Below are positions 4,001 through 62,359 of a stretch of DNA of 64,000 bases, in pieces (position 1 is the stretch's first letter; each line of letters begins with the position of its first letter). This stretch comes from Thuidium tamariscinum (Eukaryota > Streptophyta > Bryopsida > Hypnales > Thuidiaceae). The DNA lies in assembly GCA_947034885.2 (NCBI GenBank), contig OX344749.2, forward strand, positions 38,965,682-39,029,681, in the 5' to 3' direction. A program made the position numbers and the translations under genes. The notes beneath the pieces are model-generated. The model saw nothing but the letters and a program-made list of their open reading frames with translations, had not been told where the DNA came from and did no database searches.

Positions 4001-6190
4001 AGACAAGGGAGGGATTCAAGGGGCGGGGGATCAGAAATGTTGCCAAAAAAATGAAAAAATTTATCGTAAATATGCATGTCACATACTATAACTTAAGCAC
4101 TAGCTTCGTAGCCTGTGGGTACTACTAAAATTTTACTCTTTAGGAAATGCTGAAAAACACTACTGCAGTTGGAGAACCCAGAATAAGGAAATTTGTTCCG
4201 TTTTCACATTGGATTTCTGCTGTGGATTTAGGGGTTTGATTCTCACACCGCTTACCGGAGATGGGAGTTTGGAATGTGAGTTTTTGGGCCCCATGCTACC
4301 GTTTTCCTCTTCAATTGTTAATCGAGGTTTCATCTTACTTGACAATGTGGATATTTGAATCCACCTGATTATGAAAGTGTAAAAAATCGAGATTCTTCAG
4401 TACCCATGGTTCTCGATTTCAACTTACATTGCTAACTAGGGTATCTGAGATGGGATATAGCCAACGGAGCTCTTGTTGATGTTGTAATCTAACTTGACGA
4501 TGTGGATATTTTGAATTAAGTGAACCTTTTATTCTAAGTGCGAAATCTAGACCGGTTGGTAAGTTTTCTAACAGATTTTAGCAGAGTCAGCGATGGATCC
4601 ACAAACTTTGGAACTGATTAGAGCAGATTAGACTGGGTGTGAATCTCACAAATTCTAATGCTAGTGAGGGTGATTGAATTGGAGATACCCACCTTGCCCT
4701 GGTAATGTTGGCGTAGCCATTGTGGGCTGGCGTTCAAGGGCGTATGCTTCTCCTCCATCGGTCGTTTCATTACGTGCGTGGACGGCAGGGACGACACGAT
4801 CCGCACGTCATCTTTCAGCGCCTCCTTGAAATGCTCCAAGTCGAAAATATCGCTGAATTCACTGCCAAAATCGATCGCCACGCGCACACGCATCAGCAAT
4901 CCAGCACCGAATGCTCAATTCGAGCGTTTCAATTGTCTAGTAAATAGGTTGAGAATAATCGCTCAATGCGTGGTTGCATTGAAATTCTCTGCACCAATTA
5001 ATGACACACCTACTACGAGTATTGATAAGTGGTGTGCGAAATCCAAAAGCATCAAGTTAACAGAGAAACCACAGAACCCTACAACCAAGGGAATCACCAT
5101 TCAAGTAGAGTAAAAATGCAAGCACAAAAACCTACAACAGAGGGAACCACATTCAATTAGAGATAGAATTCAAACTCAGAATCCTACAAAATAGGTAACC
5201 ACTTTTCAAATAGCGTATGAATCCTGATGCATTCTAGAAAAAATATTGAAAGAGGCACCACGTAAACGGGGTCAGTCAATCCGTGACTTTACAATTAACA
5301 ATATTGTGCATTGTCTTTGCCGTGTTCCCCTGTTGAGCGGTCTTGCAGTAGAAAAAACAATTAAACACCTAACAAACGGGCAGTGGTCTAGCAATTCCAA
5401 TGAGAAAAGACGAAGGCCATGTTCAATTGCTGATTCCAGAAACCCACAGCACCGAGTAGGGCTTTAGGCTGATCAACATTTGAAGACCAGAAGCGTGAGA
5501 CTCTCCAGAAATAAGCTGAAATGCGAGAAGTTCCAACAATCTGTGCGTGGATTGGAACACACAAGTGACACAAGGGCCAGGTATCCGTGTCGCTCACCTT
5601 TCGTCTTCCCAGATGGGATTGACTTCCATAACAGGCACCACCAGCGCCGCGCCCAACACGCGCGCCATCACCACAGCGTCCACGATCTGGTTACGTTGCT
5701 GATTCAACCCCCCGTTCACCACCACCATCAAATACTTCCCCCTCTCCGCCACCACCGTCGCCGACTCTCGCTTAAACGGATCACTAAGCTCCACGCACCC
5801 CACCAGTCCTAAACCCTCCGGCTGCTTCCAAAACAAACGCTCCAGCTCCGTCATCTCCACGGAACCATCATTCTCAGAAGAAACACTGAATCCCGAAGTT
5901 CTGACCTCCTTGGATTCCAAAGCTCCAGTGCAATCGTCGGTGTTGGGGTTGGGGAATTGTCCGGGTTGCCAGAAGAGGAGGAAGCGGAGCATGGAAGCAC
6001 AGGCGAAGATGGTGAGGAGCGTGAGCCAGCAATTGGAGAGGGGCGACTTGGAGGAGGCGGGTTTGTTGTGCGAAGGCTTTGACAAGGGGAGAAGCGAGGC
6101 GGGGGTTGGGGTGGATTGTATGTCGGGAGTGTTGGGATTCCAAAAGCTTGCTCCCACGGTCTGTTTCTTGCTGGTCTTCGTCGTCACCAT
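1009..6190 (-). CDS. plant-type GDP-fucose protein O-fucosyltransferase family protein
   Basis: Five coding exons: 6190-5598, 4861-4693, 3987-3611, 2846-2588 and 1254-1009. All have GT-AG borders and phases that close to 547 residues, normal for plant members. The product should be a Golgi type II membrane glycosyltransferase using GDP-fucose. What I see: a cytosolic N-terminus, one membrane anchor at about residues 54-74, GGLNQQR at 159-165 (the nucleotide-sugar loop), DIFDLEHF just after the exon 1/2 join, HLRLEMD at 317-323, and DYLVCLYSDVF followed by GHRAFMGHRK across the exon 4/5 join. The C-terminus has the usual Cys-containing tail (YPYPECMC). Start: an upstream GTG is in frame, but the ATG at 6190 (MVTTKTSKKQ) is the first proper start. 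The acceptor substrate (polysaccharide, arabinogalactan or protein) cannot be told. Intron 4 carries a 931-bp MITE. No frameshift or stop was found. Confidence 0.93.
1434..2364. mobile_element. TTAA-flanked MITE, family A copy 1 (piggyBac-like), in intron 4
   Basis: Left end TTAACCCCTAAAGGACC and right end GGTCCTTTAGGGGTTAA are exact inverted repeats including the TTAA. Length is 931 bp, identical to the copy at 13902-14832, which is alignable throughout. The TTAA target and CCC start are hallmarks of the piggyBac superfamily. There is no coding capacity. It lies in the last intron of the O-fucosyltransferase gene, whose splice sites remain intact. Confidence 0.88.
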
Positions 6191-7369
6191 CGTCGGGAAA
6201 ATCGGTGAGAATAAATACTGCACTAGCTAGCTAGAGCTGTCGATCGAAGCTTGCGAATCGTACTGCGAGAATTGGGGTCCAATTGGGATGGTTCTGTTCG
6301 CAAAGACTTGGAATTTCGTAGAGTTTTGGAAGATGATATATTGGGAGGGTAGAGTGTAGAATCTGTACACACTTGTACATGAAATTGACTTCTTCTCCGG
6401 GAGAGCCCGCGCACCACTATTGCTTAAATTGTGTTCCAGGAGTGAGTATCACGCTTCGAGGCGATGGGCTCGATCAATAGGAGACGTCAAATCTCACGAT
6501 AAATTCTGCTTCCACGATTTGAAGTTCACAACTTGGGAACAACGCGATTCAAGGGCAGAGAACATAAACTAACTAGGCATGTTGGGCGTCGCGCTTCCAC
6601 CTCAACAATCTGCAAATATTTGTCAAAAAATTCGGCACTCAAAGAAATTCGGACAGGGACCTTTCTCAACTCGGCTTCTTCTATGGCACCCGCTACTAGA
6701 AACAAAACGCAGTTGATGGCTAGCTACGAAGAATTGACAAGCCGCACCCACCATGACGAAACCTTCACACCATGACAGAGAAGCAACTAGCTTGCAATTT
6801 TTGCACATCTGAGTCCGTGATCGATCACCACTCGCCCATGACGGACCCGTCAAGTAGCGCGCACATCGCATGCCTAGCGATTACCACACGAGCTTACCGA
6901 ATGGGAACAGACAGAGCTCACACCAGACTGCTCAGTGGTAACAGACATCCTATCGTTGCTGATGTACGTTGTTTCCATTGCTCCCCGGAAAAGTAACACG
7001 AAAGTCGCGCCGCAGGCACACAAAGATGACCTTAGGGGAGCCCATCTTTGTGTGAATTGCATAGCTAGTTAAGCCCTGGGGTTTCTTAGAAGTCGTCGGG
7101 TTTTCTCCTTCTGAATGTTTGCCAACTGGGATGAGCTAGCTGCACATGAGCTGCAGCCGTGGTGGTCCCGTCGTATAGTCCGGGTGCACATGCGCACATC
7201 ATGATCCTGGAATCTTCCCGTCCCCCGCTCGTAAACCGAGGATAAAACATTTGTTCTACCCAATAGTGGAAGGTTACCTAATCTTTTTATAATTTACACT
7301 ATCTAAAACACTGTACGACCTCATTTGGGATTACCGCGAGTGTGACCGTCGGCAGTAGACTGTGATAGT
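6191..7369. promoter_or_regulatory. 5' flank of the O-fucosyltransferase gene
   Basis: This stretch is less AT-rich than the bulk intergenic DNA and lies directly upstream of the start codon, so it should hold the promoter and 5' UTR. I could not fix a TATA box or transcription start. The short open frames on both strands have no recognisable similarity. Confidence 0.4.
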
Positions 7370-10279: not shown

Positions 10280-11839
10280 TGGGTAGACCTTTATTAAAGC
10301 ATGGGCTACCATGTCATGTTGTCTACTTCCCAAGTGCATTGCCATAATGTTAAAGGATTGCTAAGATTGTGGTAATAGGTGGAATGGGTGATTGCAAGAA
10401 ACACCTGCCAATTTTGTTGTGTTTGGGTGATTTTTTCGGTAGTACTTTAAAATTAGAATATTAATTTTTAAACAAATTAAAAAATATGAATTATGTATAC
10501 ACCTTTAAGATGAAGGTACCCATGGAAGGAATTGCAGAGAAAAATTGTCTAAGTAGGAGAACTAGAAAAGTGCAAAGTCCCAAGAAAATACATTCCTTGA
10601 TGTTTTAATTAGGGAAAAATAGAAAAATTATGTAAATTCAAAAAATCAAAATTGTCCATTTGCAACAACTTTATGGAGATGGTCATTCATCAAAAAAATC
10701 ACTAAAAGAATACTTTATAGGTTTCAAAATGCAAGTAGAAAGACGCTCACTTTGTGGACTTCCACACAACATAAAAATAACTTTTTTCAAAATCCCTCAA
10801 GTGGAGAGCTATAAGTCTACTAGAATACCATTTCATTTAAATTTCATCTCAAAATCTTTAAAAAAAAGAAGGTACTCCATTGTACTAAAAAACCCTAAAC
10901 TACCAAGTGTGACATTCAATTGGGGTCTATTTTTGGATAGTAAACTATTTTTGAAAATTATGAAAAAATTAGGGGAAGGTGTATGATAGTTATGAGTACC
11001 TTTTCTATAAATATTGATTAATTTGGAGCCAAATCATAGAAGTTATGATCAAAAAACAAATCAGCACACTAGGTGTGACAGAAAATAGGATAAGTGTTTT
11101 TTACAATTGCTCGAGTACTAACAGAATTGGGAGGATCTTATAGGTACAAAGATTAGGGAGATGGTGGTATTGGGTAGTTCTACATTATAGAAGGTGGAGT
11201 GACTTCACCTGTTTTGCTAAAAGGATATTATAGTAGTTGGCATGTGTAAATTACTTCTTTCCTAATGTTAAGCCCATAAATGCTTGAGAATCCAAATTCT
11301 AGTGTCAACAAAATTTTGAAGTTAGATAAAATCTTATGAAATTACTATTTTTTTGGAGTATTTTTTAGACAAATTATTTTTGAAGCCTAGTTTTAGCATT
11401 AGAAATCTAAATTTGAAAGAGTAATTTTGGTTTTTTATGCAAGATTTAGTGCAAGGGCTCATGCAAGGGTGTCCATTATAAATCTTGATTATTTTCTTAA
11501 TATCTAAAGCTCTTGGAAATGAACCTCAAATACACTAGATCTTGGAGAAAAAATCATCTTAGAAAATCATATTGAAAAATTTGTAGAATAGATTTACAAA
11601 AGCTGTAAATTGACTTCGAATTTAGATTTGACATGTCAAAAGAGAGTTAAAAGACTTCAAATCACTTTCATAATTTTGACACCCCTAATGATCAAGCATC
11701 ATAATCTTTCAATCCATAAGTAATATTGTTGTGTTTTCTTTTCCCATGTGATTTCTAACATGTGTAGTTAGAATTTATGCGGTTACAATTTAAAAAGATA
11801 TAATGAAAATCATGAAAATGTTGGATTTTTTGTTCAATT
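10280..11839. other. AT-rich intergenic DNA
   Basis: No gene, RNA or clear repeat is recognised. One 108-codon open frame (10660-10986, plus) is Lys/Ser/Phe-rich, as expected for chance translation of AT-rich DNA. Confidence 0.5.
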
Positions 11840-12069
11840 CACTAGAAGAAAACCATGTTAAAATCTGTGAAAACACGTCATGTAGTTTATGTTGAGTTCA
11901 TGCTTCGAAACGCAGTCAAAACGCAGTCAAAACACAAAAAAACGCAAAAAAACGCAAAAAAATGTTTTTTTTTGCGTTTTGACTGCATTTTCACTGCATT
12001 TTGAAACATGAACCCAACATAAACTATATGACGTGTTTTCACAGATTTTAACACAGTTTTCTTCTAGTG
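11840..12069. mobile_element. CACTA-type foldback MITE, TSD ATT
   Basis: A 230-bp element whose two halves are nearly complete inverted repeats. It starts CACTAGAAGAAAAC and ends GTTTTCTTCTAGTG. A 3-bp duplication ATT flanks it. CACTA ends plus a 3-bp TSD define the CACTA (En/Spm) class. The centre holds repeated AAAACGCA units that pair with TTTTGCGTTTT. A longer relative with the same terminus lies at 45637-45965. Confidence 0.85.
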
Positions 12070-12654
12070 ATTTAAAGCAAATTCAAATAATTACAAAAAA
12101 GGCCGTGGGCATCTAGGGATTAGACCTTTGTTTACATGAGAGTCCCAAATACTTTGCAATGATGAAAGCACTTCAAACTCTTTATTATATTGATTTGGGC
12201 ACTTAAAAGCTTAAATTTGTAATTTGTAGACTTTTAGGTAATTGGAAGTCTTATTTCTAATTCTAGATGAGAGACTCTCAATGGTTCATTGAAAGTATTG
12301 TAAGTAGCTTTAGCAAATGTTGAAGAATGCCTTGGAGGGGAATTTAGTTTAAATGAGAGATTTTCATTGGTTTGTAGAATGTGTTGTCTATAGTTTAAAT
12401 AAACTATTGCTCAAGGATGTCTTGGAGGAAAACTTTAGTTTGAATGAGAGGCTCTCATTGGTTACTAGAAAGTAACATCACTAGCTTTGGCCAATGGTAC
12501 GTAGAAAATGCCTTAGAAGGGATCTTTAGTTTAGATGAGAGGCTTTCATTGGTTTGTAGCCAAAGTAGTATCATTAGCTTTGGTCAATGGTTTAGGATAT
12601 CTTAGAGGGACCTTTAGTTTGAATGAGAGGCTTTCATTGGTTCATAGAAAGCTA

Positions 12655-12950: not shown

Positions 12951-12960
12951 ATAGAAAGTA

Positions 12961-13382
12961 AGGTAGAACCACCTATTCCCAACTAGGGACCCACACCCAA
13001 CTTGTAGGATGCAGGTATTTCCAACCAAGGCTAGAAGAGATTTCCAATCAAATCTTGGAATGTACTTTTTTTCCATTTTCAAGGTTGGGACTAATAAAGT
13101 CATGACACATGTCCCAAAGTGTCATAAAGTATGTGGGAAGTACTAGTAGAAAAGTAGTCCCAACTATGATCCGAATTGGAAAACTCTAAATATTGGCTAT
13201 GGATTCAAAGCACTTTTTGGCTTCCAAAAATTATAGTAATTTCAGTTTTGGGAATAAAATTATGAAAAATTTGCATTCCCCATGTTTCAAATCTTTCTAT
13301 ATGGGAAAAATTTGCATAGCCTCATATTCCTAATGAACTATCTGAAAATTGCTTAAATGATTAAGTATAGGTGGTTCTACCT
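12961..13382. mobile_element. TA-flanked MITE, family E copy 1
   Basis: TA-AGGTAGAACCACCTAT at the left and AGGTGGTTCTACCT-TA at the right are inverted repeats with TA duplication. A full-length relative of about the same size (425 bp) lies at 51315-51740. It is inserted next to another element within the tandem array, so it is younger than the array. Confidence 0.82.
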
Positions 13383-13901
13383 TAGTGTTAATGGCTTTGG
13401 CAAATGCTAGGGGATACCTTAGAAGGGGCCTTTAGTTTCAATGAGGGTCTCTCATTGAAAGTCTTGTTAGTAGTTTTGGTGGATGTTGGGAGATGCTTTG
13501 AAAGAGCTAAGACGTTTAATTTAAAGCAAAAGTTTTTATTGGTTTGCAAAAAATATTGTCAGTAGTTCTAGCCAATGGTTGAGAATGCATTTGAGGGGAT
13601 ATTTAGTTTCAATGAGAGGTTCTCATTGATTTGTACAAAACATTGTTAGTAGATTTGGCCAATATTGGCATGGGAGTGGTTTAAAAGGGACTTTAATATA
13701 AATGATAGACTCTCATTGGTTGGTAGAAAATATTGTTAGTATCCTTAGCTATTGATGGGACGTCTTCAAGTAAGGAACCTTTAGTTAAAATAATAGAGAT
13801 TTTCATTAGTTTGTGAATAGAATTTTAGTTTACATGTAGGTATGGTTTTCAAAGATTCCATACCTACCCACAAATTAAAATCCCTCATAAGTTTTGACTC
13901 C

Positions 13902-14832
13902 TTAACCCCTAAAGGACCAAGAGTCCCCTCGGGAGACTTTAAGAATTCGGGCAGGTACTTGTGACTTCAATTTTTAATGAATTTTCTTGAAATTTTCACA
14001 TAAGATAGAAAAACTGATTAGCTTTGTGGGAATATTATTTTTTTTTCAATTGGTGACTGGGAGAAAAAGTTATGCCATCTTAAACATAATTTTCATGTCG
14101 CCGGGCAGAAAAAAAAATCTACAAAAACTTCAAAATTTAAAAATTAATTTTTTTTTCTTATAGATTTTATTTTTGTCTACAAGTGAAGCTTTGATTCATT
14201 CCATTTGGATTAGTAATGTGAAAGTTATGAACAATCTTGTTTTTCGGGCAATCTAAGCATCTTCTTGAAAAAATAACTTATAGGATTCATTTGTGAATGC
14301 AATTTTCACAATTTTTCAAAAGAAATTGTTGGACAAGATTGATTTTGTTTGCTAGAACAATCTCACCATTGGGATTATTGTGTTTCAATTCCATCTATGA
14401 GATATTTGCAATTTAGTTTTTCTTTCAATCTTGGACCTACATCTTCTTGACAATTTTTTAAAGAATGAAAAAAAAGTCTTTATTTTGTGAACTTTTTTTC
14501 CTAAGCTCTTAGCTCAATTTATCAATAGAAAAAAATTTAAATTCAAGGTCTGTAGTGCAAAACAATTACATAAATGGAGGACAAAGTCATTTGAAGTTGC
14601 AAACTAGAGTTTAAGAAAACTTTGTTTTCCAACTTTGAATGCTCATATCTTCCTATCTACACGGTCAAACTTCATGAAAATTTCACCACATGATCTTAGT
14701 TAAGTAAAGTACAAGATCCTATTGTTAGATTCTAAAAATTTAGTTTTTTTGTTTTTCATGGATGAATGGAGCAGAAATGGCAGTTTTGAGTGGTCTTGGG
14801 TTGAAAAACAACCGTGGTCCTTTAGGGGTTAA
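13902..14832. mobile_element. TTAA-flanked MITE, family A copy 2 (piggyBac-like)
   Basis: TTAACCCCTAAAGGACC at the left and GGTCCTTTAGGGGTTAA at the right, 931 bp, the same length as copy 1 at 1434-2364 and similar along its length. Its right TTAA is shared with the neighbouring family B element, so it appears to have inserted at a TTAA inside or at the edge of that element. Confidence 0.88.
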
Positions 14833-17553: not shown

Positions 17554-17783
17554 TTAACCCTTGAACAACACTGTAGACGTTTGGCGTCTGCTAAATGACA
17601 AAGAATCTTTCCTTCTAGGACAAAAATGCAACTTTTCATCCTTGGTATTGGGGGTGGAAAGGGAAGATCTTCTACAATACTTTGACTTCCAATGCATATA
17701 TTTAGCTTTTTCAAAGTAGGTGATGTCACACGGTATCAAAATGCATGGTTTCTGCGGGCACTGGTCCATCCTTCAAAGGTTAA
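17554..17783. mobile_element. TTAA-flanked MITE, family C copy 1
   Basis: TTAACCCTTGAA at the left and TTCAAAGGTTAA at the right, 230 bp. The interior (GATGTCACACGGTATCAAAATGCATG and AAAGGGAAGATCTTC) recurs in copies at 19698-19927, 34898-35131 and, shortened, 33678-33855. TTAA plus a CCCT start again suggests piggyBac-type mobilisation. Confidence 0.8.
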
Positions 17784-19697: not shown

Positions 19698-19927
19698 TTA
19701 ACCCTTGAATGTTGATATAAATGTTTAATGTTTAATGGAGGATTGAGAATTTTTCTCAATGCGATGAAAGTGTAAATATTCATCCTACAAATTTTGTGTA
19801 GAAAGGAGAGATCTTCTAGACTACTTTGACTTGCAATGTGTCCTTATGGATTTTTTTAACAAGTGATTCCTAGAGTATCAAAATGGATGATTTCAATGGT
19901 CACTAGGGTCCATCCTTCAAGAATTAA
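19698..19927. mobile_element. TTAA-flanked MITE, family C copy 2
   Basis: TTAACCCTTGAATG at the left and CATCCTTCAAGAATTAA at the right, 230 bp, the same size as copy 1. Shared interior: GAGATCTTCTAGACTACTTTGACTT and the GTATCAAAATG block. Confidence 0.72.
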
Positions 19928-20477: not shown

Positions 20478-27283
<6,806 letters not shown>

Positions 27284-27600
27284 CGCCAGAACTCTTTTGC
27301 TATGAAACCCAGAAACACACTTGCTCCCACTTCTACTTCGAGTTGCACTTGCAAGAAGAAAGAGCTGCAGCCTAGCCTCGATTCTTTGTCTTTGTGAGGC
27401 ACTGGCAACTGTTTGAGGAGAACAGAGCACAAGCACCCACGTCTTATAATGTACTGAGAACAGGGAGCTTGAAAGTGATCGCATTTTGACCCCGAGTCCA
27501 CCTAAACACGCATTTAGAGAGAACAAAGCCGTGGAGGTCAAATTCAACGGCAAAAAAGCTGTGTGCACAGTCTGCGCTCTGTACGAGACTGTCGACAAGA
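27284..27600 (-). promoter_or_regulatory. FAH 5' region with open upstream frame
   Basis: The reading frame of exon 1 continues open upstream. An ATG at 27484 would give a Ser/Arg-rich, acid-poor extension (begins MRSLSSSLFS). A TATA-like CATTATAAG on the minus strand at about 27443-27451 would place transcription start near 27415, between the two ATGs. Either one cytosolic product or two products are possible. Confidence 0.45.
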
Positions 27601-30056
27601 ATGTATGTGATTCGGTTTCAAATTATTACCAGTTGATGTGCATGCAGTCAAGTTGGGGTACCGTGCTCCCAATTTCGCTATGTTTAGCAAAAAATTCGTC
27701 AGAAATGGCAATTGCCAACAGAAAATGGGACAGGAGTCAAAGGGGAGACCCGAAGAGATCGTAAAGTGGAGAAAAATTGAAAAAGCTAACGACGACAAGA
27801 GGGATGTCGTAGCCTCACATTGCGGAAATAAGGTGATGATGTCCGGATGTTCTCTTACAGACCAGCGACTTCCGTCCTTTACACTTTTGAGGTGGGGTGG
27901 GGGGTGGAAAGTAGCAGGCGAGCAAGGTGGCAATCCCCAAAAAGTACTCCAATAAAAGTTTAGTGCATTTAACCCCTAGAGAACAAAGCCTCTGGCCATG
28001 CATCATACCACCATGTAGTCAAACTTGAAAGTCCCTCATTGGATACTCTTTACTAACGAGTGAAATTTATTTTTTGTTTTATTCTCCAAACATGAAATGA
28101 CATGTTTTATACTTTTCATGAAATTTTCAATTTTTCTTGAGAATATTTTAATCTACCATAAACTGTTGAAGAAGAAATGAAGAAATTTCATATCAAATAT
28201 GCAAAATTCTAAAATCATGTTCAAAAAATCTAAAATTTTCAAAATAGAAATACACTATACTATAGAATATTGTCATGTAAAGAAAAAAAATTTGTATCAT
28301 TCTATATTTAGAAATGTAGATATAGATTTTCAACTTCAAACTTCTGACTAAAAATCTTCCACTATTTTACAAGTTAAAAAAAAAATTTAGTAGTTGAATT
28401 CAAGTGATGGTGCAAAAATGGAAGCCTTCTAGAGGCCCCATTTCTCTCCTAATGCCTTGGATAGTGAAGTTACAAATGCGTTGGTTCACTTAGCAAATAG
28501 GACCAATTTAAAATGACCTTATTCAATCTTTGACCCAATAATTATAGAAATTCAAGTAAGAATGTAATAAATAACTAAAACAAATCATTGAATAGTTGAA
28601 TTTTATTTATTTATTTAAATATTGGTTGGTTTGGTCTAAACTTCTAACTAAATAGTGAATAGGAAGGCCACTAGTACTATGTCCAACCAAGTAGGTACAG
28701 AGTATAACAATAAGCTAGATTACTGCTATAAAATTCTATATTGTTCTATCTTGGAACCATTGAATCTATTGACCTTCCTTCCTTATGGCAATTCAATCCA
28801 TCAACTTCAATTTGGAATTTAATAAAATAGTTAACATGTATGCCCTTTGACATTTATTTTTTGCATGATGAAAATAGCAAAAAATGGATGATGAGTATGG
28901 TACTTGAAGCAATGTTTGGTTTCACTAACTTCTCATTAATCCCAAATAATACTTGAATATTTGAAAAACTACCTTCTTTAATGATTAATTTGATGGAGTT
29001 AATGAAATGATATATCCATACTAAAATATAGGTAAAATTTCGCAAAATTATAAATAAAAATTGAACCATTCTTGGATTAAAGTTCAAAAGAACAAGACTT
29101 ATTTTAAGGCTTTTTTCCAAGAATAATATAATTCAATTCTTAAACCAATACATGCATTCCTCATTTGTATCACAAGTGGTCACCTATTTGCATTGCCATT
29201 TAATGGCCTTAACATATTTTCAAGGTTAGGACCAATTAAATTATACTCAAACTTCTTTATTATAAACTCTCTAATTTCTAGAACAATATTTTGGATGAAC
29301 TACTAGTTAGTCTATTATTAGTTGGTGCCTTTGGAAATATAACTAGTTGGAGTAAAAAACCCAAGGATTCAATATCAAACAAAAAAATGGGACATCCAAC
29401 AACAAGCCAATGTGCAAATACATAACATGGATTTGTACTAGCACCGTTTTGTCATTTTTAACTGCTTATTATTATTTTGAATTGAAGGCTAATTCAAAAA
29501 TAAATAGTTAAATAAAAATAAAAATTGAAGGCTAATATCCTAGTTGTTGGAAGTAGGTATGCTTTTAGTCAAGGCAAATATGGCTTTAGGGTTGGCTACT
29601 AAGGGCTTAGAGTGCTAGAATAGGCAAGAAGGGGATATTACTTTAGATTGGTTTGTAGGCTCATAGTATCCAATTCCTATTCCATTGTTATAATCCCCAC
29701 AAACCCTATTGACATGCCTCAAAGGCAAATTGGATTGAGTTCATAGGGGGTTTAATAGTTGAATATTCTTTTGCAATAATAGGCACAAATGGTAAGGATG
29801 AAAATTCTTACCTCTTACGATAGATTCTATAGCCATTGTTAGTGAGGATATTTTGCTTTCAAGTTATAAGGGTCTATAGAATAGGGGAATGTTAGCATAT
29901 GAGCATAGAATCTATGAGCTTGTGAACCGAGAAATCTATATTATAGACAACTCCTATTGTTATAGGTGGCTATATTATAGGGACCTATATTATAGATTCT
30001 TTCATTGTAATAGGGTACCTATGTTATAGATACATCTTCACTCATGCACTAGCATT
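27601..30056. other. intergenic DNA, increasingly AT-rich
   Basis: 27600-27960 has moderate G+C and is probably FAH upstream sequence. From 27966, a lone TTAACCCCTAGAG terminus marks a probable decayed family A/B end. The rest is AT-rich with short TATAG-rich hairpins around 29935-30030. No gene was recognised. Confidence 0.45.
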
Positions 30057-34897: not shown

Positions 34898-35131
34898 TTA
34901 ACCTTTAAACGTCAAGGAAGACGTTTTGTGTTTGATGAATGACAAAGAATATTTCCTTGTAGGATAAAAGTGCAACTATTTATCCTCAATATTAGGGGTA
35001 GAAAGGGGAAATCTTCCACAATACTTTTGACTTCCAATGAATATATTTGACTTATTCAAAGTAGGTGATGTCACACAATATCAAAATACATGATTTTCAT
35101 GACTTCCACTACTCTATCCTTCAAGGGTTAA
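34898..35131. mobile_element. TTAA-flanked MITE, family C copy 4
   Basis: TTAACCTTTAAACGTCAAGG at the left and CCTTCAAGGGTTAA at the right, 234 bp. The body is clearly alignable with copy 1 (GACAAAGAATATTTCCTTG, GTAGGTGATGTCACAC, ATATCAAAATACATG). Confidence 0.78.
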
Positions 35132-39262: not shown

Positions 39263-43248
<3,986 letters not shown>

Positions 43249-45578: not shown

Positions 45579-45636
45579 TTAATCCCTTGACGATTAAGCT
45601 AATTTTAGAAAAAGCTAGATTTGGAAGGGATGGTTA

Positions 45637-45965
45637 CACTAGAAGAAAACTACGTTGTATTTGACAAAATCTGTATTGAAATTGTGTTGCATTCAACGTA
45701 ACGGATGGAGTGGATTGTCTTGAAGTCTTGCTTTGTCATGCGGAATTTTTCATTCTAACACAAAATTCTACATTTTTCTTGTTGAATTCTGCGTTTTCCT
45801 TGTTCAATTTTGTGTTGACACGTTGAAACACAGAATTTTGCGTTATGAAGGGAGAACTCAAACACAATCCACTCCACACGTTACGTTGAACGCAACGCAG
45901 TCCCAACGCAGGTTTGGCAAGTTTAACACAATTTTTGGCATGAATAGTGTAGTTTTCTTCTAGTG
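45637..45965. mobile_element. CACTA-type MITE, TSD TTA
   Basis: Starts CACTAGAAGAAAACTACG and ends GTAGTTTTCTTCTAGTG, 329 bp, with perfect 3-bp duplications TTA on both sides. Subterminal repeats built on CAACGTAACG and CACAGAATTTTGCG are inverted across the element. It shares its terminus with the 230-bp element at 11840-12069. Confidence 0.88.
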
Positions 45966-46929
45966 TTATATTTGGAAAAGAAGATGGTTATCTTAGTGGC
46001 TTAGATGACTATACAAAATTGATGTCTGTACATAATATAGTGCATACTATATTTATTTCAAATTATTTGAACCATCGAATTATGATATTATAATTATATC
46101 TTGAAGGGGGCTTGTATATAATTGTTACTAATTTTAGGTGACAAATAACTCCAAAAATTCTGGAAAAATGAAAAAGTTTGAAAATCAATTTTTTCGTGGG
46201 ATACCATATTTAGACACTTATTCTACACATCTTTGGAAAAAAAAGGTTCAATAGAGCATAAGTGAGTGCATCAAACTTCTTCAAAAGGGGAGGGGGTGTT
46301 TAAATCAACAAATTTGAAGTTGGAAATACATACCAAGTTTTAGAAAATTCTTAACATACATTCTATTCAAATCCTTCAATAACTACCAAAATGTTTTGGC
46401 AAATTTAAAGTGGCAAAAAAAAATTATCTATCTTTGAACTTCTTCTATATAGACTATGGCTATAAAAGCTGAAATTTTGGAATGCTTGATATAAATCTAG
46501 CCACGTGAAAAGGCTATAATATGCTCGATCAAGCTATACTATACAATATGAGGACATACTCCAAAATATTTATTGTGGGACTGAGCCAAATAAAGAGGGT
46601 ATACATCCCAACCACAATGTATCAATGGCTCAAAGAAGCATACAGGACAAAAGAAGGGCAAACATGCAATTCATCAAGACGAGATGCTCATTGTGCACTT
46701 TGTAACTACCAACTACCACTACAAGAGTCATACAACATTGCGGGAATAAGCTTCTCTAGAACTTCATGGGTAGAATTTTAGTACAAATATATTACAAAAT
46801 TGGCAAGTTCAAATTGGACTAAAAAATATTTACAAAATCAAAATTCACACGTACTATACACGCCTAAAATGCTCAAAATTGACTAACAAACCTACAATTC
46901 TATCAACTTGGGAAAATTATGTAAATCTA

Positions 46930-49096
46930 TTGTAACATCCTAAGATTAGAGTTGGCTTTATATCCAACTTGTAAGTAGTGTATTCAAGTAGTCCAATGCA
47001 TCCTATTACTCTTCACTCCAAGGGGAACAAGACAAAACTTCAATTGCAATGTCAGAAGTCCTACAAAATAACAAATGTGAACTACCACTTTGACTATAAA
47101 CAAGCAACGAACTTTGTATGATTGTAGGCTTTTACAAAGCACTAACCCTTTAAAATGTACTTTCTACCAAAGGCCTTGCATATCCACACTTGTTTCTGTC
47201 TACATATTCAACATTTGTACCGCTTCTTCTCTGAATATCTTGTATTGTAGTGTAGTCATGAATGCATCAAAAATACCTTGTATATGGTCCAACCAAGCAT
47301 TATAGAGCCATTACTCAACCACTCTACAATAGCAACATGATACGCCTTTCAAGACATCAGAGGAACACCTCTCCATTGGCAGTTTAGGTCATACAATACA
47401 TATGAGTTTCTAAAGCTAATATCTACAAGAAATAATAGAAGCCAATGCACCCATTTGTTTGAATGTATTGGCAACTATAGTTTGCACACTTCTACTCCAC
47501 TACATCAATGCCTCTGATATGGGTGATGAATCTCTAAGATGATAGGGCTTATTGGCAATACTATTTGACAACTCTAAATCCACCTCTATGTGAAATAGTT
47601 GATAGAAAGGGTACTACTGTGTATATTCAAAAAGTGTACAATCTATGAGTCAAACCAACAAATAGAAGACATGTGTTGGGCGGCAGGCATTTTGTGGAAT
47701 ACAATGCCCTTACTATCCTTGTTTATCTTTTGATGCCCTATAAGACTCTTGGAAAAATCTTTTGTGTTACTCTTGCACATATTGATAGCAAAGAATCATT
47801 TTACTAACAAAGTACCCAAGAGCTTCACCCCTATGAAGAAGTTATCAACAACAATGCAATGACATCAGTGTGCTAATTTGTTTGTCTACTATAATACTAC
47901 TTGAGCATCTAATAGTTGATCACTAGTAGTAGCCTTAGTGTAGGTGTCCAAATATGCTTTGAAGTTCTACATGTAACAAGTGACAGAATAAGCTATAGCA
48001 TAAACCTTGATGTTGTATTTGATGAGTTTGTTCATCATCTACAATTGCAAACTAGAATAGCTCGATCCTTATATGCTATCATAATTTCATCTATAGTAAG
48101 AAATTTGTCTAGGTTCAAATATTTCTTATAGAGTGTCACAAAATTGTCTACAAGGCAACACACCTTCCTAAGGTTGTCAAACTACGGATCAATCCAATTG
48201 GTACAAAACTTTGTGTTATCCACAAGTGGATATTTCTTAGAATGCTCAAAAATCAATCTCAAGACATGATGATCATGAGTCTTGGATGCCCAAAAAACCA
48301 ATTATCTTTCAAAGGAGGTTCACTTTTCAACCCCAAATATACTACAATTCCAAGCCACACCTTCAAGGTCTTCACCATCAATTCTTCCACTTGGGGCCCC
48401 CATTCAATGTTGTTTTGTTTCTACCGCAACCATCATGAATAACTTGAGTCACATACAAATTTATTTGATTGACTATCTAAACTAGAGGAATTTTAGGCTA
48501 GGATTGTGAGAAAAACAAATGGACTTCAAATTTGTTTTGTCCATAGAAAACGTAAGGCTTGGTTTGGATCCAATGAACGTGTCTCAAGAACCTCTAAATG
48601 ACCATTGTTGACTTTCCTACTTAGAGTCATCATATTTATTTATGAATGACAAGTTTTGAGACTCTTCTCACCAAATACGTATTTCACCAAGAAAGTCAAC
48701 ATCACTATCTACATTAGATTGCTTGTGATCACTATCTCCCATATATGAATTAGCTTCAAGAAAGTCCTAAAAGCCCACTTTCCAATCCAAACCATTTGAA
48801 TCATCAATGACCAATTCAAATTGACAAATAGCTTTGACAAAGCTTGAGAATATTGATCCTAAATTAGGATAATACATTGAAAAAAGTGTTGATGATGACG
48901 ATGTACCTACAATGGGGCCATCAACACCTTGTTCACATTGTTCCACATCTATAATAGGTGCAATTTTCTTCCGCTTGTAAAGTTGGTCTTCAAGATAAAT
49001 GCCACACTCAAAAAGAAATTCTTGTGAAAACATGTCACTTCCACCATCACTACTCGAGCCATGGTCACTATTGCTTCTAAAAATGTCAGCCTTCAT
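46930..49096 (-). pseudogene. piggyBac-type transposase relic (multiple stops and frameshifts)
   Basis: On the minus strand, an intact acidic N-terminal frame (49096-48767, begins MKADIFRSNSDHGSSSDGG) is followed by decayed DDE_Tnp_1_7-like sequence. WFFGHPRLMIIMS lies near 48300. FDNLRKVCCLVDNF, then LDKFLTIDEIMIAYKDRA, lies at about 48060-48150. NKLIKYNIKVYAIAYSVT follows at about 47990. VVDNFFIGVKLLGTLL at 47800-47855 corresponds to the conserved DN(W/F)FTS catalytic block. The Asp expected in the CDS block is not present (AYSVT). At least ten in-frame stops and several frame changes rule out function. It reads in the order expected for the family, and the C-terminal Cys-rich domain was not found. 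Confidence 0.85.
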
Positions 49097-49390
49097 TTTT
49101 TGGCTTATGCAATTGTTCCTCTTAGCAACAAAAGAATGCCATCATACTTCGTGTAGGCTATCCTAATGCTAATATCAATAAAGTCAATTGCCTAAATGTC
49201 AACAATGTTAGTCATTTGTACAAATTTCACCTGATAAATTTCTTCCCCAATTAAAATATTTGTATACATTGAAAAATTGGATGTGAGGAAGCATTCAATG
49301 TGAGCTCATTTCTTTGACAATCCAATCAACTTGTTCTCAAGTACATAATACCTCCTAAGGAAATTCTCCAAGGGCATAGAGATCTTGGGG

Positions 49391-49677
49391 CATTAGAGGG
49401 GATTTGACGCCTCCAAAGGGCCGTTTTGGGGTTGTTTCCCGAAATTGTTCCCATAACTGCTAGCCGTTGTCAGGCCAGCATTTACCCAAACAAAAAAATA
49501 AAAATAAAATTGGGTCTTGAAATATGAAAAAAATCCCAAAAAAAAATTTCAAAAGAAATTAAAATTAATGACGTGGCACTCTCTCGACCACATGGGATTC
49601 CTGTTCACGCGGCAGAAACTGCGTTCTCGCAATCCGGAAACCTACAGTCTTCCAATGGCCTCAAAAATCCCCTAATG
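49391..49677. mobile_element. MITE family G copy 1
   Basis: CATTAGAGGGGATTTGACGC at the left pairs with AAAAATCCCCTAATG at the right. Interior blocks AAAGGGCCGTTT, GGCCAGCATTTA, TGGCACTCTCTC and GACCACATGGGATT match 54618-54884 in the same order. The target duplication is unclear. Confidence 0.75.
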
Positions 49678-49779
49678 ATTGGAGATCTTCATCCTAGTTA
49701 CTAGCTACAAAACCTTTTTTGTGTTGCGATTTCCAACATCACCTCCAAAAATTCAAGCGAATTTTTTGAAATTCAAAGT

Positions 49780-50530
49780 TTATCATCCCGTATGATTCCA
49801 CAAGGTTGGTGGTGAGCTTGCCAAATTTTTGAGCTCCAAATTTGTCAAGCCCTCCATTGTACTCAATGGTGTGCATGGCAAGGATTGTTGATTTCAATTG
49901 ACTCTATCCTTCTACCACATCTTTGTAGCTCGCCCGTAGATTGCCCCCCACAATTACCGTTCCATGATTGGTCTTGTAGGAGGTAAAGGTGCACTGCAAG
50001 GTTTCCATTGCCATTATTGTGTCTACTTCCGATGCAATTGTTCCTACATTGTCTATTGTTCAAGAGACAATGCCAATTTTGTTCTCCATGTTACTATTTT
50101 CATTGCCACGAGCGACCTACACAAAGCTTTTCTAACATGTTTGACCATTTTCGAAAATCCTAATGTCGGGCCAAAGTCTATCACTCACGACTTGGAGAAT
50201 TTCTTTTAGAAACACTTTCTCCTTGCACTACTCTAGAAACCCAACAATTGAGCAATAAAATTTATACCTCCACTCTTTAGCAAAAAAGTTTTTTTAGAAG
50301 TTTGGACTACCCCTCTTAGTCAAGAGAGTTCTAAAGTAAACATTGCTCATGCACCCTAAAATTCTAGCAATGATCAACTCATTTTGTATTTGTAACCTTA
50401 TATAGGCCTCAATTATAGTCGTTTCTTATGCCAAATGCGTTGGTGGAATTGGCAACTCCCTTGATTGTTCTATAATTATAACAATTGCACCCTTACAAGT
50501 CTCACTAAATTCCAATGGGCCTTTGTATTG
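49780..50530 (-). other. eroded coding-like sequence, unidentified
   Basis: Minus-strand frames give long hydrophilic stretches broken by occasional stops (for example ILGCMSNVYFRTLL and GLDKFGAQKFGKLTTNLVES). The second faintly recalls the TTN-hES motif of Mutator transposases, but the order of other blocks does not fit. It could be another part of the same decayed element. Confidence 0.25.
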
Positions 50531-51040
50531 TTTGAAATGTCAAGAAAACATATAAAAATCACAAGCACTCACAACATTCATTTCCTAAATCCTAATTGAA
50601 AAGGATATGCAACAAGTCTAATAGTCTTATGAGAGAGTGGAAGAAGGGATCTATGAGTAGAGAGAGGTAAGAAGTTCAACTTGTGGTGGAAGTGTAATCA
50701 ATTGAAGTTCTAGCAAGTTAAGCTACAAGGGCATTGGCACGTCTAGGACACTTAGAGACCTAGCCTGTTCCTTTCTTACCTAGCCCATCAAGCTATTACA
50801 CGTTTCTAAATCTCAAATCCATCCCAAAACTTTATGCACATCCATTGATTTTAGATTAGAAGGTTGTGTCAAATTCTAGATTATGTTTTTGCATCATCAA
50901 ATTCTACATCTACATTCCACTTGATTCCTAGTAATTTGATAATTTAATTTTTTTTCAAATTTTTTTTCAAATTTTTCTCCACACATCATGCAAAGTTTTT
51001 TTGAGGGCACATTGTGTCATCGTAGTCCTCAAGAGGTTAA

Positions 51041-51314
51041 AAAGACCCTTTTCACAAATTATTAAGAATTTTAGTATTAGTATGGATTCAGTAATTTTAG
51101 TGATTTTTCAATTAATTAATGAAGATAGAACAAAATGACATTATAACAATTCCAAAATAATACTTCAAGTATTTGTAGCATCAAATTTAGTGTCCACATT
51201 CTATACATTATAATATTCAAAGAACTAGCTATGTCTCCCCCAAGTCAACATGACTTCCATTATTTCCTTCTCATCAGCCATAAGAAGTTCACCCATGATC
51301 AATTTGCAAAATTA
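51041..51314. other. short intergenic gap
   Basis: AT-rich sequence between the candidate piggyBac element and the next MITE. Nothing recognised. Confidence 0.5.
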
Positions 51315-51740
51315 AGGTAGAACCACCTAATCCTGATCACCGACCCATACCCAACTTGTCAAATGCGGCTATTTCCAACCAATGCTAGAAGGATTTCTAA
51401 TCAAAGCTTAGAGTGTACTTTTTTCCCATTTTCAAGGTTGAGACTAATAAAGTCATGACACATGTCCCAAAGCGTCATAAAGTATCTGGGAAGTACCAAG
51501 TAGAAAAGTAGTCTTGGCTATGATCTGAATTGGAAGACTCTAGACATTTGCTATAGGTTCAAAGCACTTTTTGGCTTTCAAAAATCATATTGATTTTAGT
51601 TTTGAGAATAAAATTATGAAAAATTTGCAATCCCCATATTTCCTATCTTTCTACATGAGAAAAATTTGCATAGCTTCATATTCCTCATGAACTATTCCAT
51701 AATTAATTGCTTAATTAATTGAATATAGGTGGTTCTACTT
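51315..51740. mobile_element. TA-flanked MITE, family E copy 2
   Basis: TA-AGGTAGAACCACCTAA at the left and AGGTGGTTCTACTT-TA at the right. The body is alignable throughout with 12961-13382, including AATAAAGTCATGACACATGT and TTCAAAGCACTTTTTGGCTT. Confidence 0.82.
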
Positions 51741-51859
51741 TACAACCAAACATTTGGCCAATTTACAACTAAAGGTTTGGCAAAATAAATGCACTGATGT
51801 AAAGTATTCAAGTCATTTGAGTTTACTTTTCTCCATTTGTCTTACATAACTTAACTTGC

Positions 51860-52440
51860 TGAATTACCCTAAAGCGCTCTGACATCCACTATCTAGATGA
51901 TATACAAAATGAAAATCAGATTTCTTTCTCATTATAGCTTGGATGAAAGTCATCCTAATTTTTAGAAATATTTTATGAAGTCGTGGTCCTATTCAAGGGT
52001 TGGATTTGGTGTTCTTAAAGCACATATTTTTCTAAAATTACAAATGTGGAAGTATATCAAGTAGTTGACTTGTATTGACTCTAGTTCAAACTTAGAATTG
52101 CAAAAATGAGGTCATAGAATCAAAGAACACAAAAAATCTAAAAAATCACCATATCAAGAGAACCTCATTTCAAGTCCTATCCAACAAAATTTACTCCAAA
52201 AATGAAAATATTTTGCTTATAATTGAATTTTGAAAGAATTTCGAATTTTTCCTTTCACAATTTATAGAAAAATATTGGTGATAGCATTGGTGAATCTAAC
52301 CATATGGATAGAATCTAAAACTCAAACTCTACAATTTTTATTTGCATCTCAATTACAAAATATTTTTTCAAATAGTACTTTATAAATGATTTTTCTAAAA
52401 CTATCAATTTTGTAGATGAGTCTAGATGTTTAAAGGTTAA
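51860..52440. repeat. dispersed repeat H, copy 1
   Basis: About 580 bp alignable with 55230-55815: TTGGATGAAAGTCATCCTAA, ACAAATGTGGAAGT, ATTGACTCTAGTT, and GATGAGTCTAGA near the right end. It is non-coding and no terminal repeats were identified. Confidence 0.75.
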
Positions 52441-54617: not shown

Positions 54618-54884
54618 CATTAGGGGAGATTTGAGGGATCCAAAGGGCCGTTTCAGGACTATTCTTATAAGTGTTGGTCGTTGTTAGGCCAGCATTTATC
54701 CAAAAAATAAAAAATTGGGGGGTCCTGAAATATGAAAAAAAAGCTCAATTTTTTTTTAAATTTAATCACATGGCACTCTCTCAACCACATAGGATTTCTA
54801 CAAAATTGCGTCCCCGTGGCTATTTCTGCGTTTTTGGACTATGGAAACTCATGGTCTCCTAAAACCCTCAAATCTCCCCTAATG
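54618..54884. mobile_element. MITE family G copy 2
   Basis: CATTAGGGGAGATTTGAGGG at the left and CCCTCAAATCTCCCCTAATG at the right are a perfect 18-20 bp inverted repeat, 267 bp overall (approximate perfection at the inner edge). A possible AGA flanks both ends. The interior matches 49391-49677. Confidence 0.85.
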
Positions 54885-55229
54885 AGATTTGGAGTCTTAT
54901 AATGTATAACTTCATGCTAGGAGAAAAAAAACTTGGTTTCTTTATTTTAGATGCTTACATCTTTTGATCAATGTGGACAAAGTTTGTAAAAAAATTCTTG
55001 AATTTTTTTACACTAGTCTAGTATAAGATCCTACAATTGAATATGTAAAAGAAACAAAGATGAAATTTTTTGTTGTTTGCATTAAAAGTAGAATTTTGAA
55101 TGGTTTTTGACACCCCCCCCCCCAAATGGCCCTGGAACTTTTGAGGTTGTTATAGTAACGGATAAACCAAAAAAAATATGGATCAATGATATAGAATAGT
55201 GAGCTTTGTCTCTCTGGTTCAAACACTTA

Positions 55230-55815
55230 AGGATTAACCTTGAAGCACTCTCACATTTAGTTTTTGGATAATGTACAAATTGAAAATCAAATTTCTTTTT
55301 CATTACAACTTGGATGAAAGTCATCCTAATTTTAGAGACACTTTATGAAGTTATTGCCTTATCCAAGAGTTGGATTGGATGTTAGAACAAATATTTTTCT
55401 GAAATCACAAATGTGGAAGTGATGTCAAATGGTTGACCATTCCAAATTGCATTGACTCTAGTTTAAACCTCGAATTGCAAAAATGAAGTCATAGATGGAA
55501 TAAAAAAATAAAAAAATCCCCCAAAATTACCATGTCAAGATAATCTCATTTCAAATCCATTCTATCAAAATTTATACAAAAAAATGACAATCTTTTGCTT
55601 GTAATTTAATTTAGAAGGAATTTTAAAATTTATTAAATTTTTTTATAGAAATATATTGGTGATAACATTGGTGAATCTAACTATATAGGTAGAATCTAAA
55701 ACTCAAATTTTACAACTTTATTTGCATTTCAATTCCAAGATATTCTTCTAAATAGTCTTTTATGATGATTTTTTTTGAAATTGTCAATTTTGGAGATGAG
55801 TCTAGACATTTAGGG
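55230..55815. repeat. dispersed repeat H, copy 2
   Basis: Direct-orientation relative of 51860-52440 with the same block order. A poly-C tract (CCCCCCCCCC) sits just upstream at about 55113-55123. Confidence 0.75.
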
Positions 55816-56174
55816 GATAACTTATATAAATGACCTCACAACATGAAATTTACTGAGAAATGGACTATTCCATTAAATAATGGAGTTTACAAAAGTAGTT
55901 ATAAGAATAATGGAATGGTCAATTTCGTTAAAATGGCAGTATTCCAATAAAATGGTATGATATTCCATTAAAATGGCACAACATTCCGTTAAAATGGCAC
56001 ATTTTCTTCCTCTACCTCTAGGTCTCTATGTCAAAGTGGCACATGGAATATGTCAAAATGGCACACAGAATACCACCATTTTAACGAAATTGACCATTGG
56101 AGTCTATCTTTTGTAAAATTCACATTGTTTTTAGTCCTCTTGCACTTCAACAAATTTAAGTTTAGAATGCAAAA
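55816..56174. other. AT-rich DNA with short reiterated AAAATGGCA motif
   Basis: Between about 55865 and 56100 the phrase 'CATTAAAATGGCACA' and close variants recur five or six times, in part as inverted copies (GGTCAATTTCGTTAAAATGG / CCATTTTAACGAAATTGACC). This arrangement looks like a small foldback element. Confidence 0.5.
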
Positions 56175-60241: not shown

Positions 60242-60504
60242 TTAACCCCTAAAGTATTGAACAACATTTTTTGGCAACATAGCAATTTTGGGCAGCTCGC
60301 TACGAGAGGAGTTTTTATTTATTTTTCTTTGAAATTTTCACACAAGAAGTAACCGAGGAGTAGCTTTAAGGCCCAACAATTTTCATAACTTTTGACTTTG
60401 TGGTTAAAAAGTTATGGCATGATATGTCATTTTGTTTGCTTGGTGGACAACCCGGGCAGTTGAAAAAACTTCTTTAAAAAAAAGTTTAGGGCTTTAAGGG
60501 TTAA
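60242..60504. mobile_element. TTAA-flanked MITE, family B copy 3 (complete)
   Basis: TTAACCCCTAAAGTATTG at the left and GGGCTTTAAGGGTTAA at the right, 263 bp. The body matches 14833-15152 in reverse orientation and the left half of 56175-56762. Confidence 0.8.
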
Positions 60505-60870: not shown

Positions 60871-61144
60871 TTAAAGGAAAGGAACTTACCTAGCACTTGA
60901 AACCACTTGTGGCCACTGCACCACCAACTCCTGCGTTGTTGCCAAATTATTTAGAGTTTCAAGTACCATTGAGGTGTGCATGACGGGAAGAGACACACCT
61001 TAAAAAAGGGGGGATGTGAATGCAAATGGCATATCCCGTTGCAGTGCCTGGTTGAGGATGCTCCAAGGGAAATTGCCTTGCCCAGCAGGAGGAAATGAAA
61101 CTGAATCAGACAAACCAAACCCGAGAATCTGAGGAAGTTGTGTA
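60871..61144. other. intergenic DNA, moderately GC-rich
   Basis: Open on the minus strand over 60951-61169 without recognisable similarity. No gene called. Confidence 0.35.
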
Positions 61145-61421
61145 AGGTGGGTACACCTAAAAGCGCCACTTACTCTTACTGTGCCTAGTTCTTGTTATCA
61201 TGCTATTCAGATTTTTATACTAACAGTCTTGTTGGCGAGTGAAAGCATGTTCCAACGCACCAAAGAACAGAGGATTTGGATACCATATGCCAAAGTTATT
61301 AACAGTCAAAGTCTGTTTCTGAAAGCGCCATCTACAGTCTGAGTACATGACTGATTTTGGAAATGTATGCACATTGTAGATGGCACTTTAAGGTCAGGTG
61401 CCATTTGGGGTGTACCTACCT
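61145..61421. mobile_element. TA-flanked MITE, family D copy 1
   Basis: TA-AGGTGGGTACACCTAAAAG at the left and GGGGTGTACCTACCT-TA at the right, 277 bp. Internal inverted repeats GCGCCATCTACAG / TGTAGATGGCAC lie in the right half. It is highly similar to 61952-62224. Confidence 0.88.
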
Positions 61422-61424
61422 TAC

Positions 61425-61951
61425 AATACAATTATGCTGTCCTCTGGTGCTTGAAGTCCAAGAGCCCTTCCCAAGTTCCAAAGTCATGATTCATGAATGA
61501 GTCAGGGGCATTCCATCGGTCCACTTTGGCTTTGCATCCACTTCTCAAAGTGGATGCAAGCCAGGGTGGGTGGAATTCAGTGCAGCCCTGTTGGGCTGCT
61601 CCCCAAACCAACCAACTGACCAGCTGCAGAAGAAAACGGAACGTTCAAAGTGGCAAGCGAAGTTACTCACAAGTTAAGGTATGCGGCTCTGAAAGCAACC
61701 CGGCTCTAAATGCGACCTGTAACAGATAGGTACATTTTGTTTTCTTCAGTGTACAAATAGTGTACATTTCAATAGGGGTTGCTTTAAGAAATCACAACAT
61801 TTCAACTTCAAATTTTTTTTAACTAATTCAAAAGAGAGGTCCAAAATATACTTGGGTTGGATGCCAATTCCATTTATCTTCCTATGAAAATTTACTGAAA
61901 ATTGTTTACAAATGTAATCAACTCTTAAAAGGTCACTTTACGATGACAATA
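61425..61951. other. unidentified GC-richer block plus family F right arm
   Basis: 61440-61690 is open on the plus strand (61493-61729), unrecognised. 61690-61945 matches the right arm of family F (GTACATTTCAA, TTTCAACTTCAAATTTT, TTGGGTTGGATGCCA) and is interrupted at its end by family D copy 2. Confidence 0.5.
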
Positions 61952-62224
61952 AGGTAGGTACACCCAAAAGCGCCACTTATTCATATTGTGCCTAGTTCCT
62001 GTTATTAGCTAGTTCAGATTTTTATGCAGTCTTGTTGGCAAGTGAAAACATGTTCCAACGCACTAAAGCACGCAGGATTTGGATACCGTATGCAGAAGTT
62101 ATTAATGGTCAAAGTCTGTTTCTGAAAGCGCCATCTACAGCCTCTGAACATGACTGATTTTGGAAATGTATGTGCACTGTAGATGGCGCTTTTAGGAACA
62201 GGGCGCTTTTGGGTGTACCTACCT
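61952..62224. mobile_element. TA-flanked MITE, family D copy 2
   Basis: TA-AGGTAGGTACACCCAAAAG at the left and TTTTGGGTGTACCTACCT-TA at the right, 273 bp, with almost perfect termini. The body is highly similar to copy 1 in direct orientation. It is inserted at the end of a family F arm. Confidence 0.9.
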
Positions 62225-62359
62225 TACCTTATGGTTCTGTCACCAAACAAGAATAACGTAGTGTTGGTCATGGAAAAAGGAAAGGCTCCTGAAGGCCACC
62301 AGTGAGGTTCAATTCTCCCTCTCCTGCTTGGGAATTTGGGATGTATGGGAGGAGGTCCA

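Follow-up and report, generated by a model that had tools for sequence, protein, structure and literature searches.

Element 45579-51040, on the minus strand of a 64,000-nucleotide stretch of the genome of the moss Thuidium tamariscinum (contig OX344749.2; C1:38965682-39029681; the whole stretch is hereafter called the window), is very probably a decayed piggyBac transposon that inserted at a TTAA and belongs to a large and diverse piggyBac population, accompanied by miniature inverted-repeat transposable elements (MITEs) and mostly bearing a second conserved region that we call the upstream conserved domain (UCD). Taken alone, this relic is an ordinary dead transposon. piggyBac transposons are best known from animals, and what is new here, as far as sequence can tell, is a very abundant land-plant population with signs of recent movement and a conserved module without a known family. 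The genome searched comprised 363 Mb in 19 contigs, and copy numbers throughout are lower bounds. A LEAFY exon of this genome fits a moss host: it scored 210 bits against PDB 4bhk (Physcomitrella LFY1), versus 155 against 2vy1 (Arabidopsis LEAFY), and has the Asp and Cys residues of the moss type.

Results

The relic spans 5,462 bp from TTAA to TTAA, including two nested inserts. Its transposase region, at positions 48557 to 47103 of the minus strand, was matched in tblastn searches by transposases of the same genome, with best E values of 1.4e-29 and 2.8e-27, and its translation is interrupted by stops and frameshifts. The original prediction, made from the letters of the window, had placed a decayed piggyBac with many stops on this strand, and the homology bears it out. 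The DDE frame is broken by so many stops that the relic lacks the intact transposase of an autonomous element, and it is not among the PF13843 loci counted below; its membership in the superfamily was established by tblastn with its relatives. Used as a nucleotide query, positions 46500-49200 found ten pieces of the genome outside the window, nine of them at 65-71% identity and a tenth, of only 46 bp, at 87%.

The closest relative is locus L020 (C3:25.04 Mb; 71% identity over 1.8 kb), an element of 5,017 bp that has TTAA-CCCCTTGAGG at each end and a transposase with a stop. In a blastn alignment, L020 covered bases 1-990, 1163-1390, 1656-5061, and 5407-5462 of the relic, that is, both TTAA termini and the body. 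The boundaries are therefore right, and what they enclose is a complete but dead element. With the transposase as reference, its 3' terminus reads TTAA-TCCCTTGACG (45579-45592, plus strand) and its 5' terminus reads TTAA-CCTCTTGAGG (51027-51040, minus strand); both were aligned to the L020 termini. The ends of the relic are degenerate, starting TCC and CCT; those of the relic family read CCYCTTGAGG. The termini that had been predicted to enclose the relic were thus confirmed, as was the expectation that better-preserved relatives would carry such ends.

The two larger gaps in the alignment coincide with the inserts. One is a stretch missing from L020 (45635-45979), which holds a nested short element of an unrelated MITE type with ends, read by eye, like ACACTAGAAGAAAACTAC. 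The other is a nested repeat at 49391-49689, mostly absent from L020, other copies of which lie at 54618-54898 and in L039. Elements with ACTAGAAGAAAACTAC ends were seen both at 45635-45979 and at 11829-12081, the latter a foldback that matches its reverse complement at 83% identity.

Beyond the window, at least 116 loci scored from 659 candidates matched PF13843 (DDE_Tnp_1_7), all above the family cutoff and with a best E value of 5.7e-80, and 14 control genomes contained no PF13843 locus. Four relatives searched against Pfam matched the same family at E values from 2e-72 to 7e-80. We fetched 20 regions around transposase loci and defined families by all-against-all blastn. The four sampled copies of family alpha are 99.98-100% identical, the two of beta 99.6%, and the three of gamma 99.7-99.8%, in each case with differing flanks and with TTAA on both sides; the two sampled delta copies are 97.8% identical, one TTAA end lying within the fetched DNA and the other end outside it. 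The elements are 4.9-5.6 kb long, with stop-to-stop frames of 744-1,214 amino acids in alpha to delta, and terminal inverted repeats starting with CCC are present in the relatives. Among the best 40 of 119 candidates for an alpha query of the genome, at least 11 were full-length copies, identical (100%) along an alignment of about 5,096 bp; the remaining 29 matches were 67-71% identical, and none was higher.

A delta transposase matched PDB entry 6x67 (listed as "Transposase", and which we take to be Trichoplusia ni piggyBac) at an E value of 5e-29 and piggyBat (PDB 9c0f) at 8e-27, and the alignment brings the three Asp motifs into register. These DDD motifs are complete in 11 of the 13 sampled elements (ten by pattern, L039 by reading) and incomplete in L021 and L022. 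We do not claim a Tudor-like middle domain for these transposases: the best PDB match of transposase alignment A2 was an adenylyltransferase (E = 0.43), and the KDM4A Tudor match started from an E value of 0.62 over about 18 residues.

TTAA-bounded ends are in excess in the window. Counting both orientations, we found the pattern TTAACCYYT 19 times, where 200 dinucleotide shuffles gave a mean of 4.9 and a maximum of 14. Plain TTAA, at 402 occurrences, is below its shuffle mean of 642. Two looser end motifs gave weaker evidence (13 versus a mean of 5.8 and a maximum of 13; 22 versus a mean of 9.8 and a maximum of 22). By reading, eight elements have TTAA at both ends: the relic; two 931-bp copies of MITE family A (1434-2364 and 13902-14832, plus strand), 90.6% identical to each other; three plus-strand copies of family C, the B/C of the original prediction, at 17554-17783 (230 bp; 80% identical to the next), at 34898-35131 (234 bp; supported by genome matches), and at 19698-19927 (an older copy of 230 bp, recognized by its ends and by alignment); and two A-like elements, one at 56175-~56956 with CCCCTAAAGGA ends, an internal tandem duplication, and an uncertain right end (56762 or 56956), the other of 263 bp at 60242-60504, delimited by alignment and ends. 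Four further elements have a degenerate or unresolved end, namely, 51862-52440 (left TTAA degenerate) and its 78% identical family member 55234-55823 (right TTAA degenerate; alignment and ends), an older element split by 13902-14832, and 33852-~34650. The tally of at least ten TTAA-bounded elements in the original prediction is reached only when degenerate ends are counted; eight have two TTAA ends.

The MITE at 13902-14832 was inserted at a TTAA of the older element. When its two flanks are joined at a single TTAA, they can be aligned to three copies of the host repeat that lack the insertion, and no gap falls at the junction. At the site itself, the window copy has TTAA, L024 has TTAG, and L032 has a different word, with a 10-bp length difference nearby. 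The family boundaries and this unoccupied site both identify TTAA as the target.

Family A is abundant. Its exact 18-bp end occurs 4,488 times in the genome, versus 0 for the reversed pattern. The first 100 ends listed form 16 inward-facing pairs, of which 15 span 915-934 bp and one spans 1,171 bp; neighbors within 2 kb in the same list faced outward once and in the same direction three times. A query with 1434-2364 gave 41 matches from the best 40 of 6,723 candidates. Of these matches, 40 run the full length, namely, the window copy itself (100%) and 39 others (96-98%); the remaining one is partial, at 72%. The 11 full alpha copies at about 100% and these best A copies at 96-98% make the predicted "once very active" lineage too modest in its "once", while the high past activity of the superfamily in this genome stands. 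Family A also matches both ends of L033, a transposase-bearing element of 5,143 bp, over 140 bp at 74% and 306 bp at 71%. A direct origin of A from the relic is unsupported, A having both ends in common with L033, which is another lineage.

For family C, the query 34898-35131 gave 46 matches from the best 40 of 2,955 candidates; the 45 outside the window were 73-88% identical, and 29 of these came within three bases of the full length. An end pattern of the C type, designed for the search, occurred 75 times, versus 0 for its reverse. Both families are short and high-copy, with inverted ends and a fixed target, and on these features we class them as MITEs. C-type ends were also seen in short series, five times at steps of about 100 bp at C1:28224588-28225003 and three times at C8:21512847-21513147, which suggests tandem amplification of MITE ends.

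The UCD, of about 120 amino acids, is common to alpha, beta, and gamma, where it lies in reading frames that precede the DDE frame. A profile built from these three also matched L031, L032, L039, L020, L027, and L021 (E values from 1e-35 to 2e-10). Among the sampled elements, for which the 15 boundaries used in the scan are partly approximate, the profile did not detect it in delta or L033 and found broken traces in L022; the genome search placed the UCD of L030 3.4 kb upstream of its transposase. The relic carries a decayed UCD with three in-frame stops on the minus strand at 50147-50473 (HMM E = 2.4e-26), 58% identical to that of L020 over 50144-50470 (E = 2.5e-36). A single-sequence model of this relic domain was helical, with a mean pLDDT of 54 and a pTM of 0.33, and was unusable for a fold search. 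Two protein searches of the genome with the UCD gave 93 and 146 matches, which merged into 213 loci. Of the 116 transposase loci, 91 have a UCD on their own strand no more than 6 kb upstream, at an observed spacing of 1.35-3.4 kb; in 2 of the 116, one lies on the wrong side or strand within that distance.

None of nine UCD members had a significant match in Pfam (best E = 0.14, for one member), and the profile had no convincing match in PDB, where the best of three listed was a TRP channel (E = 0.016) and none was a piggyBac. Nucleotide differences fall in excess at third codon positions in all six UCD pairs tested, as they do in two DDE control pairs; between alpha and L031, codon positions 1, 2, and 3 of the UCD differ 39, 26, and 70 times. 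This excess means that the domain is or was translated, and the codon pattern indicates that it is or was under selection as a protein. It is probably part of the transposition machinery.

Two readings of how the UCD would serve the transposase have to be weighed. That it is the first exon of one long transposase, spliced onto the DDE frame, seems to us evenly balanced. Its fixed order and strand and its limited spacing at the 91 loci speak for this, as does a copy at C1:49389285 in which the UCD match falls in a 945-amino-acid open frame that is, by coordinates, the same frame as the DDE match at C1:49391247. In that copy, however, the UCD match is weak (29% identity, E = 4.5e-4) and a stop interrupts the DDE frame. 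A donor-like AG-GTGAG follows the tail motif of the first open reading frame (ORF1) in three of the four clade-1 elements read, but in two of these three the ORF1 frame stops ahead of the site, and the fourth element, L039, has a different GT site. Gamma and L020 have no good donor at the place inspected; in these two, and in alpha and beta as well, the frame that comes after ORF1 overlaps it in a different phase. This donor-site evidence does not convince us that the UCD and the DDE frame form a single spliced gene.

Somewhat less probable, in our estimate, is that the UCD forms an accessory protein of its own that transposition requires, like the Myb-like ORF1 protein of PIF/Harbinger elements. 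By reading, a Met is present at the UCD start or just ahead of it in 9 of 9 sampled copies; the tail motif precedes the ORF1 stop in three of the four clade-1 elements and has a variant in the fourth; the ATG of the second frame (ORF2) of alpha overlaps the end of ORF1; and the third-position excess also counts for a separate protein. Against it stand the possibly in-frame copy just described, the 25 of 116 transposase loci in which no UCD was detected, and an ORF1 tail less constrained than the UCD: its codon positions differ 56, 56, and 75 times between alpha and L031, a weaker bias. The copy at C1:49389285-49392356, with its 945-amino-acid frame, is informative on how UCD and DDE are joined.

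Other features of the window are of different types. A repeat pair of about 430 bp (12955-13384 and 51309-51742; 86% identical; also in L034) has ends like AAGGTAGAACCACC and is not of the TTAA type. Two elements of about 280 bp (61143-61424 and 61950-62227) have inverted ends GGTAGGTAC...GTACCTACC, with further copies in the fetched flanks of L027, L034, L038, and L039; up to 95% identical, they are perhaps recent. Pieces of host genes lie on the minus strand at 2447-6226, 27071-27622, and 39647-42314, comprising two O-fucosyltransferase pieces, a fumarylacetoacetase N terminus, and two Glu/Leu/Phe/Val dehydrogenase pieces, one just below the Pfam cutoff. An Rfam search of the window gave 0 matches.

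Discussion

Our working hypothesis, which we consider very probable, is that the relic was inserted at a TTAA by its DDD transposase and that it then decayed and received two later inserts. It is one member of a large, diverse population made up of diverged piggyBac lineages with inverted ends starting with CCC, among them one family of 11 copies at about 100% and further families, each sampled in two or three near-identical copies. The transposases of this population would act in trans on the short non-autonomous elements, which number in the thousands, and most scored larger elements also encode the UCD. The near-identity of copies points to recent transposition, and the UCD would have its role in the same process.

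Several points weigh against this hypothesis. Recent activity is read from sequence identity. The DDE frame of the relic is so rich in stops that its identity rests on its relatives. The ends shared by family A and L033 are only 71-74% identical, which makes L033 a relative of the source and not the source. The UCD and the transposase do not always pair: besides the 25 transposase loci without a detected upstream UCD, for 122 of the 213 UCD loci no transposase is listed, the 116 scored transposase loci coming from 659 candidates. This non-pairing may be due in part to the limited scoring of candidates and may in part be real.

A recent horizontal transfer of the 11-copy alpha family, in place of a burst of a resident element, seems unlikely to us: the copies are at about 100% with nothing else above 71%, but that gap rests on the best 40 of 119 candidates, and alpha has the UCD as well as 50-55% amino acid identity over ORF2 in common with other residents. 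Less likely still is the origin of the CCCTTGAA MITEs (families B/C) from the family of the relic, since of the original prediction that made the relic a possible source of family C only the likeness of short ends survives (about 10 bp, C CCCTTGAA versus CCYCTTGAGG), whereas family C gives no match to L020-L022 at an E value of 1e-8, and the delta end CCCTTTAAGGACC resembles C about as well by eye.

The moss elements share with T. ni piggyBac and piggyBat the DDE_Tnp_1_7 domain, three catalytic Asp residues, the TTAA target, and ends starting with CC, and the C-terminal Cys-rich region of the moss transposase could be aligned with that of piggyBat. They differ from T. ni piggyBac in their length of 4.9-5.6 kb, their frames of 744-1,214 amino acids, the extra upstream UCD, and the land-plant host; the structures of piggyBac and piggyBat show no second module like the UCD. 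The available part of one report gives 2,472 bp and 594 amino acids for T. ni piggyBac and 2.2-3.5 kb for bee piggyBacs (PMC10140906). Like other piggyBac-type MITEs, those of the moss are short, with inverted ends and TTAA, but here thousands of one 931-bp family occur alongside transposase genes. If the UCD is a separate protein, the arrangement would resemble that of the PIF/Harbinger two-protein transposons in pairing a DDE transposase with another conserved protein region; it differs from them in that the UCD has no significant Pfam match and in the transposase and target site.

Plant piggyBac sequences appear in several surveys, in the parts available: PiggyBac is listed among the angiosperm MITE superfamilies (PMC10004981), one 75-bp copy is listed for a grass (PMC8319324), and 1,230 pieces totaling 0.12 Mb are listed for a fern (PMC6890710). 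Native plant piggyBac is not treated in the available parts of PMC10905368, PMC8101967, and PMC10175614, and one occurrence of the term in a moss genome paper (PMC10619864) reads "piggybacking". We found no account of moss piggyBac in the literature searched; most subscription papers and Repbase lay outside its scope, and absence from print is not proven.

On the sequence evidence, we give roughly equal weight for and against the broader proposal that the piggyBacs of mosses form a land-plant branch of the superfamily, mobile until recently, that uses a second module, the UCD, as an N-terminal domain or a partner protein, and that with its thousands of MITEs it constitutes a natural plant piggyBac system. 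A moss with many full-length elements, one family of which has 11 near-identical copies, and with dependent MITEs in the thousands would offer a native plant system in which to study piggyBac activity, host control, and the birth of MITEs, and with the UCD comes a specific question, namely, how transposases of this branch work.

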